This document shows positions 36,182 through 42,717 of a DNA stretch of 64,000 nucleotides, piece by piece (within the stretch, counting starts at the first letter, position 1; each line of letters opens with the position of its first letter). The stretch covers positions 1-64,000 of the forward strand of contig CALXOD010000007.1 in NCBI GenBank assembly GCA_944389925.1. Direction: 5' to 3'. The position numbers and the translations under genes were made by a program. The notes beneath the pieces are model-generated. The model saw nothing but the letters and a program-made list of their open reading frames with translations, made no database searches and was not told where the DNA came from. The stretch is from an uncultured Victivallaceae bacterium (GTDB lineage Bacteria; Verrucomicrobiota; Lentisphaeria; Victivallales; Victivallaceae).

Positions 36182-37270
36182 ATGCCCGCAGAAAAGGACA
36201 ACAAGCAGGTCGATCGCAATAAAAATCTTGAAATTGCCATCAGCCAGATCGAAAAAGAATTCGGAAAAGGCTCCATCATGCGCCTCGGCGATACCGCCGC
36301 CCTCTATTCCGACATTCCTGTAACCAGTACCGGCAGTCTGGCGCTGGACATCGCACTCGGCATCGGCGGACTGCCCGCCGGACGCATCGTGGAAGTCTTC
36401 GGACCGGAATCTTCCGGCAAAACCACGCTCTGCCTGCATGTCATCGCCAACTCCCAGGCCGCGGGAGGCCGGTGCGCCATCATCGACGCCGAACACGCCA
36501 TTGATCCCGGGTATGCGGCGAAAATCGGCGTCAAGCTGGAAGAACTGCTGATCTCCCAGCCGGACTGCGGTGAAGACGCGTTGAACATCGCCGACGCTCT
36601 GGTGCGCAGCAATTCCATCGACGTACTGGTGATCGACTCGGTTGCCGCCCTGGTTCCCAAAGCCGAAATCGAAGGTCAGATGGGTGATTCCCATGTCGGA
36701 CTTCAGGCACGTCTGATGTCCCAGGCACTGCGGAAACTGACCGGTGCGGCCAGCCGCAGCCGGACCTGCATCATCTTTACCAACCAGATCCGGGAAAAAA
36801 TCGGCGTCATGTTCGGCAATCCCGAAACCACCACCGGCGGCAACGCCCTCAAGTTCTACGCGTCAATCCGGCTTGACATCCGCAAAACCGGTACGCTCAA
36901 AGACGCTGCCGGCAATATCACCGGCAACCGGGCCCGGGTCAAAGTCATCAAAAACAAAATGGCGCCGCCGTTCCGTACTGCCGAATTCGACATCAATTAC
37001 GCGGAAGGCATTTCCAAGGTCGGTTCCATTCTGGATGTGGCCACCGAGCTGAATCTGCTGGAAAAACGCGGTTCGTGGTTCTCCTTTGAAGGGCAACAGC
37101 TCGGACAAGGGCGCGACCAGACCAAGGCCGAACTGGAGAAAAACCCTGAACTGCAGTTGAAACTGCTGGAACGGATCCGGGAAAAAACCGGCATTGCCGG
37201 TGTCCCCGGTGCCGCCCCTGCTGCGGCGACTGCCATGGGAGATGAGACTCCGGCAGATTCTGCGGAATAA
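36182..37270 (+). CDS. recA: Recombinase RecA
   Basis: A 362-residue RecA, the strand-exchange protein of homologous recombination and SOS co-protease. Walker A is [10 protein letters not shown], Walker B is [12 protein letters not shown] in sense (DVLVIDSVA), and the L1/L2 region with [28 protein letters not shown] is intact. The Ala/Asp-rich C-terminal tail is acidic as usual. AAGGA precedes the ATG. No LexA-like box is visible in the 29 bases after gyrB, so any SOS control must act on the gyrB promoter or elsewhere. Confidence 0.98.
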
Positions 37271-37299: not shown

Positions 37300-39828
37300 A
37301 TGGGAGCTCTCCGACTGTTTATTGTGCGTTGTCTGCTGCCCGGCATGCTTGGCATGCACGGGCTCTCTGCTGCACAGACGGTGGATCCGGCCCATGTAAG
37401 ACCGGATTATCCGGCGCTGAGCCGTCACGCCCTGGCCGCTGGAGATTTCCGGGGAGCTGCCGATCTGCTGGAACGGGCCCTGGAAACAGCAGGCCCGGAA
37501 CAATGGCGGCCGATGGCTCTTGAGACTGCGGAACTGCGCCTCCGCTCCGGGGAACCGGACCGGGCGGAACGATTGCTGGCGGAGTTCGAGTTGCGCTATC
37601 CGGACCACAATTTGACTGAGCGAAAAATTCTCCGTGCCGACATTCTGCTGGCTCGGGATCAGTTCGGTCCCGCGGCTCGTCTTTATAATGAACTGACGAC
37701 CTCCGCCGGTTTGAGTAAAACCCAGATGGACAGCGTCATGACCCGGCTGATCACCGCCCGGCTCGGCGAGGAAAAATACGAGGAGGCCGCCGAAATAGGA
37801 GAACGGCTGGAAAAAATCGCAGCCACCCCGGAGACGGAATTTGCCGCACGGGTTCGGCGTATCTATGCGCTCCAAGCCGCCGGAAAATTGCAGGAAAGCG
37901 CAGCTCTTCTTGCCGACGCAGCCCCGTTCCAGAATGCCTCCCAGCAGGATGTGAAAACAAAACTGGACTTGCTCCAGCTGCTGCTTTCGCGGAAAATCAG
38001 TGATTTCAAAAAACAATATACGGCGTTCATTACCGGCCGTTCTTTTGAAAAAGCCGATTTTCTCACTCATCGTCTCAGCCGCGCCGCCGGCGAACTGTTC
38101 GCCGCAGGAGAGCAGCCGGATGAAGCGATTGCCAGCTATCAGATCGCATTTCGTACTGCCACCCGGGAAGACGACCGGCGAGGCGCCCTGCTTGAGCTGG
38201 CCAATGTACAGATGAATGCAGGACGCCAGGCGGATGCGGCGGAAACCCTTCTCAAATACCTTGCGTTTTACCCGAATGATCCGGATTCTGTCAATCTGGA
38301 AATGCAGGCGGGGCGACTTTTTGCCGCCGCCGGAAAACACCGGGAGGCGATCCGCTGCTTTGAAAAACTGACCGGCAATGAACAATTACCTTTGACCACC
38401 CGTCTGGAAAGCGCCCGGGAAGCCGCCTTGACCGCGGAACAGGGGAAACTGGATCAGGAGGCCATGCGGTTTCTTCGGTACCTCATCGACCATGCCGCCG
38501 ATGCTGCACAACGGCAGGACGGCTATTATCTGCTGGGCGAACACTATTACCGACGGCAGGAATACGGCCGGGCGGCCGAAGCCTTCGCCACTGCCGCAGA
38601 AGAACCGGCAGTGCTGCAGGAGAAAGCGGTTTTCTGGCAACTCCAGGCCCTGCTGAAAGCTGGGAATTACACTGCCGCCATGCCGGTCGGAGAAAGACTC
38701 CGCAAGGCGGAGGATCCGGAATTACGCGCAGCAGCGGAATACTTTCTTGCCGTTCTGCTCGATCGGACCGGAAAAATCGCGGAAGCAGCCGACGCTTACC
38801 TGAAATTCGCTGCGGCGCACCCGGAATCAGAATTCGCCCCCCAAGCCGTTTTCGATGCGGCACTGATTGCCGAAAAACAGAACAATCATCGGGTTGCAGC
38901 AGAACGATACGCCGACTTCGTCAGTCGTTTCCCCACTCACATTCTTGCCGCCAACGCCCTGTTTAAAGCCATGCAGGCGGCATTCGTCTCCCGCGACGAC
39001 ACGCTGATGCGGCGGACTTCGGATACGCTGACGCAAAATTACCCGGATTCGGAGTATACGATTTCCGCCCTGTTCCTGCAAGTGGACTTTCTGGCGGGAG
39101 AAAACCGCTTTCAGGCGGCATTGTCCGTACTGGATCGAATCGCCGCTCTGGCCAAAGAGCATCCGGACCGACTGGCACAATGTTATTATGATCAGGCGCG
39201 GATCAACGCCCGGCTGGACCACACGGAAAAGGCGCTCCAGCTGTTGACGCAACTTCTGGAAAAACACCTCGCCACCCCGGTGGCCGCCGACGCGGCCTTG
39301 CTGGCGGCCAACCTGTATTCTGATCATGGCGATTATCAACGTGCGGCAGAACTCTATGAACGAGCGAAAAAGCTTCGGCCGGGCGGACGGTTTGCCGATG
39401 TCTGCGAAGAACGAATCGCGGATTGTGAATTCAGCCGCGCGGCAGCCACTCACGACCGGAAGCTTTTCAAAAACGCCGCGGAACGTTATCGGAAACTGGT
39501 GGAAAAAAATGATCCCGGCTCCATCTATTCCTGTTTGTATAAGTTGGGACGCAGCCGGGAATTCGCCGGCAATGCCCGGGGGGCCCTGGCAGCCTACGGG
39601 GAATTACTCTACCGGGCGGTGGAAGCTCGCCGTCAAAACCGTTACTTCGATACGGTCTGGGTCGGCAAAGGTGTTTATGCCGCTGCCATGCTGCATTTGA
39701 AAAAGGCCTCGCCAGCGGCAGCCCGGGAAGCACTCCGGATTCTGGAAATCGCCCGGCAGCTGGATCTGCGTACCGGCGAAGATTTTGACAAAATGGCCGC
39801 GGATATTCGCGCCCGATATAAAATTTGA
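37300..39828 (+). CDS. Large periplasmic TPR-repeat protein
   Basis: An 842-residue protein with a probable signal peptide (hydrophobic core about 5-24, ending SAAQT). Nearly all the rest is tetratricopeptide repeat: units such as LAAGDFRGAADLLERALETA, AGRQADAAETLLKYLAFYP, GDYQRAAELYERAKKLRPGG and KIAEAADAYLKFAAAHPESE recur. This fits an extended solenoid. It opens a plus-strand block with ExbB, ExbD, TonB-like and zinc-ribbon genes, suggesting a periplasmic scaffold for an energised envelope machine, perhaps comparable to Tol-Pal's YbgF (inference). The ribosome site before the ATG at 37300 is poor. Confidence 0.85.
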   Translation: MGALRLFIVRCLLPGMLGMHGLSAAQTVDPAHVRPDYPALSRHALAAGDFRGAADLLERALETAGPEQWRPMALETAELRLRSGEPDRAERLLAEFELRYPDHNLTERKILRADILLARDQFGPAARLYNELTTSAGLSKTQMDSVMTRLITARLGEEKYEEAAEIGERLEKIAATPETEFAARVRRIYALQAAGKLQESAALLADAAPFQNASQQDVKTKLDLLQLLLSRKISDFKKQYTAFITGRSFEKADFLTHRLSRAAGELFAAGEQPDEAIASYQIAFRTATREDDRRGALLELANVQMNAGRQADAAETLLKYLAFYPNDPDSVNLEMQAGRLFAAAGKHREAIRCFEKLTGNEQLPLTTRLESAREAALTAEQGKLDQEAMRFLRYLIDHAADAAQRQDGYYLLGEHYYRRQEYGRAAEAFATAAEEPAVLQEKAVFWQLQALLKAGNYTAAMPVGERLRKAEDPELRAAAEYFLAVLLDRTGKIAEAADAYLKFAAAHPESEFAPQAVFDAALIAEKQNNHRVAAERYADFVSRFPTHILAANALFKAMQAAFVSRDDTLMRRTSDTLTQNYPDSEYTISALFLQVDFLAGENRFQAALSVLDRIAALAKEHPDRLAQCYYDQARINARLDHTEKALQLLTQLLEKHLATPVAADAALLAANLYSDHGDYQRAAELYERAKKLRPGGRFADVCEERIADCEFSRAAATHDRKLFKNAAERYRKLVEKNDPGSIYSCLYKLGRSREFAGNARGALAAYGELLYRAVEARRQNRYFDTVWVGKGVYAAAMLHLKKASPAAAREALRILEIARQLDLRTGEDFDKMAADIRARYKI

Positions 39829-39884
39829 CAATCGACCGCCGTGGCTATCCCGGCGGCACAGAGCGGATCGAAAGGAAATCTGCC

Positions 39885-40544
39885 ATGCTTTTTTATGACC
39901 TGATGACGGACGGAGGTCCGGTAATGTGGCTGATTCTGGTATGCAGCCTGATCGCAGTATTCGTATTTCTGGCGAAAACCTTCCAGTTCCATCGCGAGGA
40001 AATCAACGTGCGGGAACTGGTCAAAGGACTGGTCAATGTTCTCAAACGAGACGGCTATGTGGCAGCAATCAGCCTCTGTGACACCACCCCCGGACCGGTG
40101 GCCCGGGTACTGGGGGCAGCCATTCTCGCCTGGGAACGGGGGGATGAGGATATCCGGCAGGCGGTTGATGACGCATGTCTGGAGGAACTGCCGAAATTGG
40201 AACGCCATATCGGCGCACTCGGCACCATCGGTTTCATCGCCCCGTTGCTGGGACTGCTGGGAACGGTGCTGGGCATGATGCAGACGTTTCAAACCATCCA
40301 CGATACCAGTAGCGTGTATCTCTCTGCGGCACAGCTTTCAGGATCCATTAATATGGCCCTGATCACGACGGCGGCAGGACTGGCGGTGGCAATTCCCAGT
40401 TATGTGGCCTATAACTATCTGGTGTCCCGAGTCAATTCGATTACGCTGGACATGGAAAAAGCGGCCTCGGAAATCATTTCCTTTTTCGAACGCCGCCGGA
40501 AACAGCAGGAACAGGATCTCGACGAAGATGATATCATCGAATAA
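39885..40544 (+). CDS. exbB: ExbB/TolQ-family proton channel
   Basis: A 219-residue inner-membrane protein of the MotA/TolQ/ExbB family. Three helices are visible: about 15-33 (WLILVCSLIAVFVFLAKTF), then IGALGTIGFIAPLLGLLGTVLGMM with the conserved Gly-rich helix-turn, then MALITTAAGLAVAIPSYVAYNYL. The cytoplasmic C-terminus is acidic (DLDEDDIIE). With ExbD it forms a proton-driven motor. I start at the ATG at 39885, with AAAGGA about 9 bases upstream. It overlaps exbD by 17 bases. Confidence 0.93.
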   Translation: MLFYDLMTDGGPVMWLILVCSLIAVFVFLAKTFQFHREEINVRELVKGLVNVLKRDGYVAAISLCDTTPGPVARVLGAAILAWERGDEDIRQAVDDACLEELPKLERHIGALGTIGFIAPLLGLLGTVLGMMQTFQTIHDTSSVYLSAAQLSGSINMALITTAAGLAVAIPSYVAYNYLVSRVNSITLDMEKAASEIISFFERRRKQQEQDLDEDDIIE

Positions 40545-41007
40545 CAGCCAGCGACGCATCGGTGCCCGCCGTTACCGGACCCGCCTGCAACCGCTGTCGG
40601 GACGTCCCGATCTGACACCGCTGGTGGACGTAATGTTTCTGGCGCTGATCTTTTTCATGATCTCCAGTTCTTTCGTCCAGGTTTCCGGGATCCGGGTGGA
40701 TTTACCGCAGGCGAACGCTTCCACGGTCGCGGATATCGAAAAGTTCATCATTTCCATTGCCTGGTCGGAAAAAGAAAGTCTGGTCTACTTCAACGATCAG
40801 CAGGTTTCCTGGGAGAACCTCAAGGAAAAACTCGCCGAAGTCAGCGGCATGTCCAAAACCGCCACGGTCGTAATCCGTGCCGACAGCCGGGTTCCGTTTG
40901 AAACCGTGGCCCGCGTCATGACGCTGGCAGAACGGGCCGGGCTGGCCTCCTTCATCGCCGTCATGCCTCAAAAACTGAAGCCGGATGCGGTATTCAGTCA
41001 ACCCTGA
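40528..41007 (+). CDS. exbD: ExbD/TolR-family protein
   Basis: A 159-residue protein with a basic N-terminal arm of about 25 residues, then the single transmembrane helix with the functional Asp in LTPLVDVMFLALIFFMISSSF, and a periplasmic domain with VRADSRVPFETVARVMTLAERAG-like features of ExbD/TolR. The Asp is the proton-carrying residue of the family. The ATG at 40528 lies inside the exbB end; no strong ribosome site is seen, so re-initiation after exbB is likely. Confidence 0.92.
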   Translation: MISSNNSQRRIGARRYRTRLQPLSGRPDLTPLVDVMFLALIFFMISSSFVQVSGIRVDLPQANASTVADIEKFIISIAWSEKESLVYFNDQQVSWENLKEKLAEVSGMSKTATVVIRADSRVPFETVARVMTLAERAGLASFIAVMPQKLKPDAVFSQP

Positions 41008-41023
41008 TCTGGAGTCTGCACTC

Positions 41024-41767
41024 ATGTCGGAATCCCCGGAAACATCCCATGTGCCGGCCAGACATCCTTATCGTCTGATCGTGCTGGAGGCGATCCTGGC
41101 AACCCTGCTGGGACACGCCTTGCTGTTGTTTCTGTTCGTGCCAGCGCCTCCGGTACCCGCAGGGACTCCGCCCCGAACCGCCGGTATAGCGTTATTCAAC
41201 CTGAACAACGCGTCTCCGGAAGGCGTGGCGCGCATGGAAAACTGGATGGCCATCCACGATCCTTCCCATATTGCCCGCAGTGACACGGTCGCGTCTCCCA
41301 CCGCCCGGTTGCCGCAGCCGCTCCGGAATCTGCCCGCAGACCGTCCGAGACCGGAACCCGGGGTATCTTTGCCGCCGCATTCCCCGACTCCGCCGGAACA
41401 CTTGCTTGCGTCGCCGGCACCGGGAATCCCGCTTTATCCGGAAGCCGTATTTGCCCTTAAAATTCCCCAAACAGCGGCACAGCTGCCGCCACAGGTCTTG
41501 CAGGACGGGCGTCCGATCTCCCTGGATTTGCCTCCGGAAGCGCTGGAACTGAGCCGCTCCATTCATGCCACCTGTACTCGGCTGTTGCTTCGTAGAGAAA
41601 CCAGAGATGGCCAGATCCGGTTCACCATCCTGCAAACCGGCGGCAGCGCCAAGCTGGATCTGCTGGCAGCCCGGCTTCTGATAGGGGATGCCACGCGACT
41701 GAAAATCGAGACCGAACCGGTGGAATTTCAAATTCTCTGGAATCCGGCGGCAGGAGAACAGCTATGA
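41024..41767 (+). CDS. TonB/TolA-like anchored protein
   Basis: A 247-residue protein with a cytoplasmic N-terminus, one transmembrane helix (about 23-41, LEAILATLLGHALLLFLF), a long Pro-rich periplasmic stretch (about 42-150) and a compact C-terminal domain (RETRDGQIRFTILQTGGSAKLDLLAARLL). This is the layout of TonB and TolA, and its position behind exbBD supports it. The C-terminal domain does not show the usual TonB YP motif, so its partner is likely not a standard TonB-dependent receptor. GGAG lies 9 bases before the ATG. Confidence 0.7.
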   Translation: MSESPETSHVPARHPYRLIVLEAILATLLGHALLLFLFVPAPPVPAGTPPRTAGIALFNLNNASPEGVARMENWMAIHDPSHIARSDTVASPTARLPQPLRNLPADRPRPEPGVSLPPHSPTPPEHLLASPAPGIPLYPEAVFALKIPQTAAQLPPQVLQDGRPISLDLPPEALELSRSIHATCTRLLLRRETRDGQIRFTILQTGGSAKLDLLAARLLIGDATRLKIETEPVEFQILWNPAAGEQL

Positions 41768-42021
41768 TCGCCATCAGTTATGCCCATGCAATATTCGTTT
41801 ATATGACCTTGTGGCTGGCCTTGCTGCTGGTACTGTGGTGCCGGTCGCTGTTGCGGCGGAAGCGTTTTCAATGGCAGTTGACCAACAGCCGCCTCTTTGA
41901 CTGTGACAACTGCCATTATGCCTTCTTAACCAAGGAAGAGGTCAATCTGACCCGCTGCCCTCGCTGCAATGCCATCTGTATCCGGCGGAAAAAACGGCGC
42001 GGAGCGCCGTTCCGTCCCTGA
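41764..42021 (+). CDS. Small membrane zinc-ribbon protein
   Basis: An 85-residue protein: a transmembrane helix at about 8-27 (AIFVYMTLWLALLLVLWC), a basic linker, then Cys pairs CDNC and CPRC about 20 residues apart that would bind zinc, and a strongly basic tail. It starts by ATGA overlap with the TonB-like gene, so it belongs to the same unit. No named family recognised. The DNA that encodes its last residues also contains the terminator of the prepilin gene on the other strand. Confidence 0.8.
   Translation: MIAISYAHAIFVYMTLWLALLLVLWCRSLLRRKRFQWQLTNSRLFDCDNCHYAFLTKEEVNLTRCPRCNAICIRRKKRRGAPFRP
41989..42011 (-). terminator. Intrinsic terminator of the prepilin gene, inside the zinc-ribbon gene
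   Basis: AACGGCGC (41993-42000) pairs with GCGCCGTT (42004-42011). On the minus strand the stem is followed by TTTTTT, 17 bases after the prepilin stop. It overlaps the coding end of the zinc-ribbon gene. Confidence 0.8.
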
Positions 42022-42027
42022 AAACCG

Positions 42028-42717
42028 TTATTTATCCAGCGTAAAATAGTAATCCTGCGGGGTCAACACACCATCCACAGTTGCGGTGGAACTGATATAG
42101 GTAATCGGTGCAACGTGGCCGTCATAAAAGGCGGCGTTGACACTGTTGCGATTCCCGTGGCGAGTCCAGCGTACATTGCTGTTGGGCGAACCGTCCCAAG
42201 AGGTGCTCAGCGCCCCGAGCTCGTAATACATACCGTCCAGGGAGGAAATTTTCTGTCCGGCATTGCGTACCCGACTCAACTTGGTCAGTTGATTCCAGGC
42301 TCCGGATCCGGAGATATAACCGGAAGAGCGATTGTGCGCATAGCCACCGTAACTGGCAATCTCATGCTTGACTTCATACTGAAAAGTCTGGTTGTCCTCT
42401 CCAACTGCAGATGGACACATCGGCACCGCATTTTTCAAATATACCGGAAAGCGCCGGGTGAAAAGCGGCGTCGCATAAGGAGCCAATCCAATATGCCAGT
42501 TGAATTTGGCAGGCGCGTTGTAGCAAGCAGCCAACCATTCGTTGTAATCGACAGTATACAGCTGTTCCGCAGTAGCGATCTGCTTGAGAATACTGGCACA
42601 CGAACTGCGCCGGGCCTGCTCCCGGGCCTGATTCAGAGCCGGAAGCAGCATCGCCGCCAGAATCGCGATGATTGCAATGACCACCAGCAATTCAATCAGG
42701 GTAAATTTTCTGTTCAT
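42028..42717 (-). CDS. Prepilin-type (type II pseudopilin) protein with H-X9-DG motif
   Basis: A 229-residue protein with a very short leader (MNRKF), the cleavage and methylation site [20 protein letters not shown] with Glu at mature position 5, and a hydrophobic N-terminal helix. The globular part includes several Cys and ends with [17 protein letters not shown], the H-X9-DG signature of pseudopilins widespread in Planctomycetes and Lentisphaerae. These genomes carry many copies; roles are mostly unknown. It has its own strong promoter and terminator and is monocistronic. The ATG at 42717 has a purine-rich stretch upstream. Confidence 0.93.

Follow-up and report, generated by a model that had tools for sequence, protein, structure and literature searches.

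The window, i.e., the whole stretch of DNA analysed, covers 64,000 nucleotides from an uncultured Victivallaceae bacterium. It encodes five genes in series downstream of recA, for a TPR protein, an ExbB, an ExbD, a TonB-like protein and a membrane zinc ribbon, with the following features:

36182..37270, + strand: recA, the upstream neighbour, given for context only and outside the machine (Pfam RecA, 2.3e-131)
37300..39828, + strand: TPR protein of 842 aa, the presumed periplasmic partner (Pfam TPR families, best 7e-16)
39885..40544, + strand: ExbB/TolQ-like pentamer subunit of 219 aa (Pfam MotA_ExbB, 1.5e-31)
40528..41007, + strand: ExbD/TolR-like subunit of 159 aa (Pfam ExbD, 1.7e-28)
40627..40629, + strand: codon of Asp34 of ExbD, the proton-site aspartate, in the motif PLVDVMF (sequence)
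41024..41767, + strand: TonB/TolA-like transducer of 247 aa, with a membrane helix, a proline-rich linker and a predicted TonB-fold end domain (AlphaFold2, VIA-align, alignment)
41492..41743, + strand: C-terminal domain of the TonB-like protein, residues 157-240 (predicted secondary structure, structural matches)
41764..42021, + strand: membrane protein of 85 aa with a C-terminal zinc ribbon, probably cytoplasmic (conserved cysteines)
41902..41967, + strand: presumed zinc-binding cysteine pairs CDNC and CPRC (alignment of relatives)

The first-pass annotation had described these five genes as a set following recA on one strand, and its coordinates, frames and spacing are correct. The TPR gene starts 29 bases after the end of recA, the ATG of exbB (39885) is located 56 bases past the TPR stop, the ATG of exbD (40528) opens a 17-base overlap with exbB, and the TonB-like gene, which starts 16 bases after exbD, is overlapped by the zinc-ribbon gene through an ATGA. 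The module is followed by a convergent pseudopilin gene and then by a sodium:solute symporter, the only transporter near by. Between recA upstream and these two downstream neighbours, neither tolB nor pal is present in or near the gene string.

The adjacent genes encoding MotA_ExbB and ExbD domains are those of the 5:2 motor family (MotA/TolQ/ExbB with ExbD/TolR/MotB), and by sequence the module encodes ExbB/TolQ-type and ExbD/TolR-type subunits with the known pore residues. Alignment of the window ExbB to its PDB matches, TolQ (1.7e-15) and ExbB (2.4e-10), revealed that the pore threonines T127 and T162 are retained, and both PDB and NCBIfam scores bring this subunit nearer to TolQ than to ExbB. 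The ExbD subunit matches ExbD of the PDB (8.6e-12) and keeps Asp34, the membrane aspartate of the proton site. Motors of this class are described as powered by ions that flow past an aspartate conserved in the inner subunit, as stated in a review for MotB, TolR and AglQ/S (PMC9389320).

The TonB-like protein has no match to a Pfam or NCBIfam family. Its AlphaFold2 model consists of a membrane helix (residues 15-37), carrying a T-x-x-x-H motif in the alignment, and a C-terminal alpha-beta-beta-alpha-beta domain of about 85 residues. As the annotation had remarked, the protein is devoid of the YP end and terminates in VEFQILWNPAAGEQL. Foldseek alone returned no PDB match for the model at E<=0.001, its best rows being unrelated polymerases. 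With VIA-align, every one of the 12 best structural rows for the end domain was a TonB or TolA end domain (Z 4.0-6.1), among them Neisseria TonB (Z 6.1, rmsd 2.8, 71 residues aligned), and two weak profile matches were obtained (E 0.57 and 0.70). The TonB assignment draws on these VIA-align Z scores of 4-6, on the succession of strands and helices and on the two weak profile matches.

The TPR protein begins with a signal-like hydrophobic stretch, which is the first of the 44 helices of its AlphaFold2 model (pLDDT 90.4). According to our own script, a hydrophobic N-terminus is found in 67 of 74 long TPR relatives and a lipobox-like motif in 1 of the 74. The protein reaches 104.1 bits against NCBIfam tol_pal_ybgF (cut-off 90.1), as a sum over five stretches, and a fold search with the model led to generic TPR solenoids. 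A periplasmic scaffold of the Campylobacter flagellar motor appeared at rank 20 of this search (TM-score 0.24) and was not used as evidence.

The 85-aa protein gave only weak Pfam zinc-ribbon matches. C47, C50, C65 and C68 are invariant across 18 aligned relatives, and the four-cysteine pattern is found in 98 of 99 distinct relatives. In 97 of 98 scorable distinct relatives, the flank of the helix that leads to the ribbon has more Lys and Arg than the other flank, so that the ribbon is probably cytoplasmic.

The order gyrB-recA-TPR-exbB-exbD-TonB-like-zinc ribbon was found in all 18 loci opened from the same family and order, which rules out chance. One strict-pattern scan of named genomes provided 53 confirmed named loci, all Lentisphaeria-type or "uncultured bacterium", in which recA directly precedes the TPR gene in 44, the TPR gene directly precedes the motor genes in 46, and exbB-exbD-TonB-like-zinc ribbon are in line in 50 (recA-TPR and TPR-motor adjacency being 18/18 in the own family and order). 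Across the phylum Verrucomicrobiota, a TPR relative (E up to 1e-20) was found in 343 of 387 sampled genomes, and exbB-exbD adjoin the TPR gene in 19 of 20 of the TPR loci opened. The five-gene order is therefore old and conserved throughout the class and in a large part of the phylum; it is not unique to one strain, and the annotation's suggestion of a lineage-specific envelope machine fits this distribution. In other orders of the class, 13 of 21 loci hold only exbB-exbD-TonB-like-zinc ribbon with no TPR gene beside the motor, hence the TPR protein and the motor need not always act together.

Several known systems resemble the module in part. The TPR-tolQ-tolR-tolR-vWA clusters of PVC bacteria, of unknown function, are described by Williams-Jones et al. 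2025 (PMC12204202) and share with it the superphylum, a TPR gene 5′ of a TolQR-type motor and a transducer that spans the membrane once and bears a histidine. The likeness as compared here is one of gene layout. These clusters encode a tolR-like pair and a vWA end domain (PMC12204202), whereas the module has a single ExbD between ExbB and the transducer gene, an end domain predicted to be of TonB/TolA type instead of vWA (no Pfam match), and a zinc-ribbon protein in addition.

A relationship with the Agl-Glt gliding or spore-coat machinery of Myxococcus is unlikely; we know of no gliding in these bacteria. GltJ carries a cytoplasmic zinc ribbon joined to a TonB-like end domain, and a zinc ribbon is also encoded here, on a membrane protein of its own. 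Published descriptions include a TolQR-like motor with TPR proteins (PMC3169522) and the TonB-like end of GltJ (PMC8262864), so that motor, TPR proteins and TonB-like end are common to both systems when likened by the description of their parts. However, Agl-Glt has two TolR-like subunits, AglQ and AglS, where the module has one ExbD, comprises many more proteins, and combines the zinc ribbon with the TonB-like end in a single protein.

Tol-Pal (TolQ-TolR-TolA-TolB-Pal, CpoB) has in common with the module a TolQ/R-type ring, a single-pass transducer with a TonB/TolA end and a TPR protein in the gene string. It differs by TolB and Pal, which the annotation had rightly reported missing from the string, and the module has an 842-aa TPR solenoid and a membrane zinc-ribbon protein. 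As for TolA, the module's transducer matches no Pfam or NCBIfam family, while its predicted fold is like that of TonB/TolA ends. That the module is the genome's own Tol-Pal motor, split from TolB and Pal, its TPR protein being an oversized CpoB/YbgF, would agree with the TolQ-like scores of its ExbB, with the TPR protein passing the tol_pal_ybgF cut-off and with the presence, away from the module, of TolB (TIGR02800, 3e-62) and Pal (TIGR02802, 6.6e-34) in the genome. TolB was detected by PD40, the TolB_N family alone missing it (1 of 28 genomes matched). However, a separate TolQRA is encoded on another contig, C34 (MotA_ExbB 1.2e-29, ExbD 2.1e-23), with an end domain that Pfam recognises (TonB_2, 7.9e-12), and this set outscores the module both as TolQ (145.9 vs 100.6 bits) and as TolR (80.5 vs 65.6 bits). 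All the Tol parts are therefore accounted for without the module, and the split Tol-Pal, quite unlikely on these data, was rejected. The annotation had held that a full Tol-Pal set elsewhere might explain the motor: such a set is indeed present, but it has its own TolQRA motor, and therefore the module is an additional machine and not the missing motor of Tol-Pal.

The membrane aspartate kept by the window ExbD is replaced in 44 of 100 distinct module ExbDs and, by the same procedure, in none of 59 ExbD paralogues from 20 of these genomes. Its distribution requires 17 changes on a tree, at least nine of them on well-supported (starred) branches, the support being partial (48 of 97 inner branches starred). 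The module genes lacking the aspartate remain under purifying selection, with an ExbD dN/dS of 0.01-0.13 in 12 pairs. A compensating charge was sought in the 44 aspartate-less modules, as an acidic residue elsewhere in the ExbD helix or a new acidic column in ExbB, and none was found in the helix core; a charged residue is located within the 26-column helix window in 11 of the 44 ExbDs, mostly near the outer end. This loss, which was not visible to the first-pass annotation, was the most surprising part of the analysis. A literature search, with subscription journals mostly outside its coverage, returned no paper on an ExbD without the aspartate and none on the module's gene order.

An aspartate-less ExbD might not be passive but share a ring with a TolR paralogue that has the aspartate, and one proton site of two would therefore remain. 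All 20 genomes checked encode one or more such paralogues. However, in three genomes (G005, G008 and G058) the one further ExbD that was found sits on another contig and nothing else points to such pairing, which makes it quite improbable.

The Ton system (ExbB-ExbD-TonB with TonB-dependent receptors) shares motor subunits and the TonB-like fold with the module, which differs from it by its extra TPR and zinc-ribbon proteins, the missing YP end and the missing receptor plug. A Ton-type motor for outer-membrane uptake, the "polymer uptake system" of the annotation, could be suggested by the TonB-fold end domain, and other outer-membrane proteins may still serve uptake. Yet a search for the Plug domain of TonB receptors came back empty for 21 of 21 genomes from the order, including the one that contains the window, and the module is retained there; uptake thus receives no support and is very unlikely to be its role. 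The module may have a Ton role in the class's other orders, because TonB receptors are present in 6 of 7 genomes there.

That the aspartate loss reflects decay, misalignment or assembly error is hardly credible: although most of the surveyed loci are metagenome assemblies and tree support is partial, one genus shows the loss in several of its genomes, a genome assembled as a single contig (G224, L138) shows it too, the surrounding motif aligns gap-free, dN/dS is low and the paralogues are unchanged.

We propose, as the reading we hold probable, that the module is a second Tol-like trans-envelope machine, separate from Tol-Pal, often a passive tether and with a role that is probably structural. 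Five ExbB and two ExbD would form a ring in the inner membrane, on which the helix of the TonB-like protein may dock through its histidine. The end domain would cross the wall and act on the TPR solenoid or on an outer-membrane partner held by it, and the zinc-ribbon protein, which would sit in the inner membrane and expose its ribbon to the cytoplasm, could regulate or anchor the ring. In the window's lineage, proton flow could drive the machine since the proton site is intact. In many relatives, the aspartate is gone while the genes are under selection, so the machine would most likely be a passive, envelope-spanning tether or scaffold. Because aspartate-less modules would be kept as such, the role is probably structural (envelope organisation or division) and not nutrient uptake, the least certain step of the proposal.

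More tentatively, the essential job of the ring may be that of a trans-envelope strut, linking inner membrane, TPR solenoid and outer layers, and not proton-driven turning, if ring and TonB-fold arm were kept for the age of the phylum while the proton site was lost repeatedly; powered and unpowered versions would then coexist in sister lineages. Within this phylum, nearly half the copies of a single conserved machine have the aspartate replaced while paralogues keep it, a natural experiment on which Tol-like functions need proton flow and which need only a scaffold.

Other parts of the module were compared with the state of the aspartate. The first ExbB pore threonine is retained in 99 of 100 distinct modules. 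Of the 44 modules without the aspartate, 7 have Met or Ala in place of the second, including all five with Gly at the aspartate site, as against none of 56 with Asp. On an 81-row tree, this coupling amounts to 0-2 independent pairs changing the same way and none the opposite way, which is too few, and it is a lead only. The helix histidine of the TonB-like protein is absent in 23 of 91 scored relatives (9 of 100 modules had no TonB-like match, and the helix finder is crude and visibly wrong for at least one row, L192). It is present in 42 of 52 modules with Asp and 26 of 39 without, with no clear link.

Outside the class, the zinc-ribbon gene is absent in 8 of 18 aspartate-less loci vs 0 of 13 with Asp (Fisher p 0.0096). 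A link between zinc ribbon and proton site was rejected: the tree shows the absence as a single event, and the choice of loci depended in part on their having no listed zinc ribbon, hence the association is no independent evidence. The module is a candidate envelope machine for Lentisphaeria and relatives and would give this small membrane protein a testable role; the protein is widely distributed in the phylum, where its gene is also found alone, beside guaA or rsmD.

In the window, five genes follow recA on the forward strand, as read from the ORF list and the DNA:

37300-39828, forward strand, TPR protein (Pfam TPR repeats)
39885-40544, forward strand, ExbB (Pfam MotA_ExbB)
40528-41007, forward strand, ExbD (Pfam ExbD)
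41024-41767, forward strand, TonB-like protein (Pfam search matching no family)
41764-42021, forward strand, zinc-ribbon protein (Pfam zinc ribbons below threshold only)

The ExbD of this module carries the motif PLVDVMF, with Asp34 at the proton site. This aspartate, presented as conserved in a review of 5:2 motors (PMC9389320), is missing in 29 of the 81 distinct ExbB/ExbD pairs of the first collection and, with later loci added, in 44 of 100 module ExbDs (identical pairs counted once, fragments removed), where it is replaced by Asn (20), Ser (12), Gly (5), Cys (4), Ala (2) or Thr (1). Such proteins make up 26 of the 69 from the class Lentisphaeria and 18 of the 31 from outside it, and a search of their ExbD helix core for a substitute acidic residue revealed none. 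Among the matches listed for 20 genomes, 18 of them picked in the knowledge that their module is Asp-less, the same alignment column holds Asp in 59/59 distinct non-module ExbD-family proteins and in 2/10 module rows. In an ExbB-ExbD tree built with the two columns in question removed, the Asp state changes 17 times (9 within the class, 8 outside), at least 9 of these on starred branches. The tree itself does not give the direction of change; because the paralogues and the solved relatives have Asp, we infer that the changes are losses. The first pore threonine of ExbB is kept in 99 of 100 modules, while the second is replaced by Met or Ala in 7 of the 44 Asp-less modules versus none of the 56 others.

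Pairwise dN/dS values, obtained with a Nei-Gojobori script and rough because many dS values exceed 1, gave no sign of decay of the module exbB and exbD in the pairs compared. For the 12 pairs lacking Asp, which are not all independent of one another, the ExbD values range from 0.01 to 0.13, and for 10 pairs with Asp from 0.04 to 0.22, an eleventh being saturated; for ExbB the ranges are 0.00-0.12 and 0.02-0.16, respectively.

The gene order is conserved within the class. TonB-like relatives occur in 28 of 61 near genomes, own genome counted, and the string gyrB-recA-TPR-exbB-exbD-TonB-like-zinc-ribbon was found in all 18 loci opened at larger scale. Of 197 genomes of the class, 177 have a match to the zinc-ribbon profile (E<=0.001), including 77 of the 81 good ones. 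A scan of named genomes yielded 53 loci, whose titles are all Lentisphaeria-type or "uncultured bacterium"; exbB-exbD-TonB-like-zinc-ribbon stand in line on one strand in 50, of which 46 have the TPR gene before them and 44 also recA before that. Two of the remaining three are cut by contig ends and, in the third (locus L097, 2080-5367), the TonB-like and zinc-ribbon genes are on one strand and exbB and exbD on the other, which may reflect replacement of the motor. The class contributed another 21 loci: 5 carry the full string, 3 the zinc-ribbon gene alone and 13 the last four genes with no recognised TPR or recA gene adjoining; 12 of these 13 come from other orders, and the one from Victivallales (L064) may be cut short. 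At two loci of the class (L071 and L076), the motor-free zinc-ribbon gene adjoins rsmD, neighbours being named by eye.

The class-trained zinc-ribbon profile also matches 173 of 387 genomes sampled from Verrucomicrobiota. Seventeen such loci outside the class were opened: 7 have TPR-exbB-exbD with the zinc-ribbon gene downstream, 5 exbB-exbD-TonB-like-zinc-ribbon, 1 exbD-TonB-like-zinc-ribbon and 4 the zinc-ribbon gene alone, which by eye adjoins guaA in three (L142, L152 and L157). The TPR profile matches 343 of the 387 at E<=1e-20, often across its full 845 positions; the weaker matches, with E of about 1e-20 to 1e-45, could represent different TPR proteins. In 20 opened TPR loci, picked mostly for a weak or unlisted zinc ribbon, exbB and exbD lie downstream of the TPR gene in 19, including L207, where the final order lists only exbD and the zinc-ribbon gene and ExbB was identified in an overlapping reading frame; at the remaining locus (L210, from a genome of the class), the TPR gene is a copy that does not stand with the module. 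By eye, the TPR gene of loci outside the class is often preceded by uvrA (L192-L194, L207, L208), with hisD-hisC often downstream at these loci; uvrA, like the recA of the window's order, is a DNA-repair gene.

Two known systems were considered for the module. A Ton system was judged unlikely for the window's order, as no Plug domain was found in 21/21 of its genomes; it is present in 6/7 genomes of other orders, and OmpA-type proteins occur in 28/28. The module was likewise rejected as the Tol-Pal motor, since the genome has a separate set. Of its three MotA_ExbB proteins, one is encoded on contig C34; next come an ExbD and a protein that combines a proline-rich linker with a TonB_2 end domain (7.9e-12). 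The motor subunits of this C34 set outscore those of the module as TolQ and as TolR. A TolB propeller lies on contig C7 outside the window, near 91 kb (TIGR02800, 3e-62), and C54 carries a Pal-type protein (TIGR02802, 6.6e-34); neither reaches the cut-off of its family, the Pal-type protein falling only just short. The Tol-Pal genes are thus spread over three contigs (loci L155, 6147-6791; L051; L188). The third MotA_ExbB protein, on C8, stands beside a DUF2149 protein (6.5e-31) and belongs to a different motor-like set; the start of an apparent CobN-type protein was seen there by eye (L052, 1-1840). In NCBIfam, the module ExbB scores 100.6 bits as TolQ versus 68.2 as ExbB, and the module ExbD 65.6 as TolR versus 55.3 as ExbD, all below cut-off. 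Because the TPR protein reaches 104.1 bits with tol_pal_ybgF (sum over five stretches; cut-off 90.1), automatic annotation may label it YbgF.

The AlphaFold2 model of the TPR protein has 44 helices, the first being the signal-like one (pLDDT 90.4). That of the TonB-like protein, built from a 19-sequence alignment (mean pLDDT 73.3, pTM 0.39), has a membrane helix (15-37) joined by a long linker of low confidence to a C-terminal alpha-beta-beta-alpha-beta domain. Foldseek alone returned no match at E<=0.001, with Helicobacter TonB only at rank 38. When its candidates were realigned with VIA-align, the first twelve were all TonB or TolA end domains (Z 4.0 to 6.1), unrelated folds scoring 3.5 and below. 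Searching PDB sequences with a profile produced two hits only, both Neisseria TonB (E 0.57 and 0.70). Weak singly, these results together support a TonB/TolA fold for the predicted end domain.

PVC bacteria are described as having a cluster of unknown function in which a TPR gene accompanies tolQ, a pair of tolR-like genes and a gene for a vWA transducer (Williams-Jones et al. 2025, PMC12204202); the main text of that paper contains neither "zinc" nor "Victivallis", "Akkermansia" or "Lentisphaer-". The module differs from this cluster in its end domain, single ExbD and zinc ribbon.

At the level of sequence, the parts of the module, their order, their conservation and two classes of ExbD are established. 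By analogy with the known motor family, ExbB and ExbD would form a ring of five-to-two stoichiometry, on which the TonB-like helix would dock through its histidine, a residue that 68 of the 91 scored relatives have, and the end domain would reach across the periplasm and contact the TPR solenoid. Judging from its residues, the machine of the window can be proton-driven, and modules where Asp is gone should be passive struts. A role in division or envelope organisation, which is a guess, would fit the module's conservation in the absence of receptors. The zinc ribbon is most likely cytoplasmic, where charge distribution places it in 97 of 98 relatives. One locus (L066, 7443-7903) has a tandem pair of zinc-ribbon genes, the first without the second cysteine pair. 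In the window, the zinc-ribbon gene lies tail to tail with a gene for a pseudopilin-like DUF1559 protein (42028-42717, reverse strand), to which proteins on C34 (L051, 2871-3791) and C8 (L052, 2357-3202) look similar.
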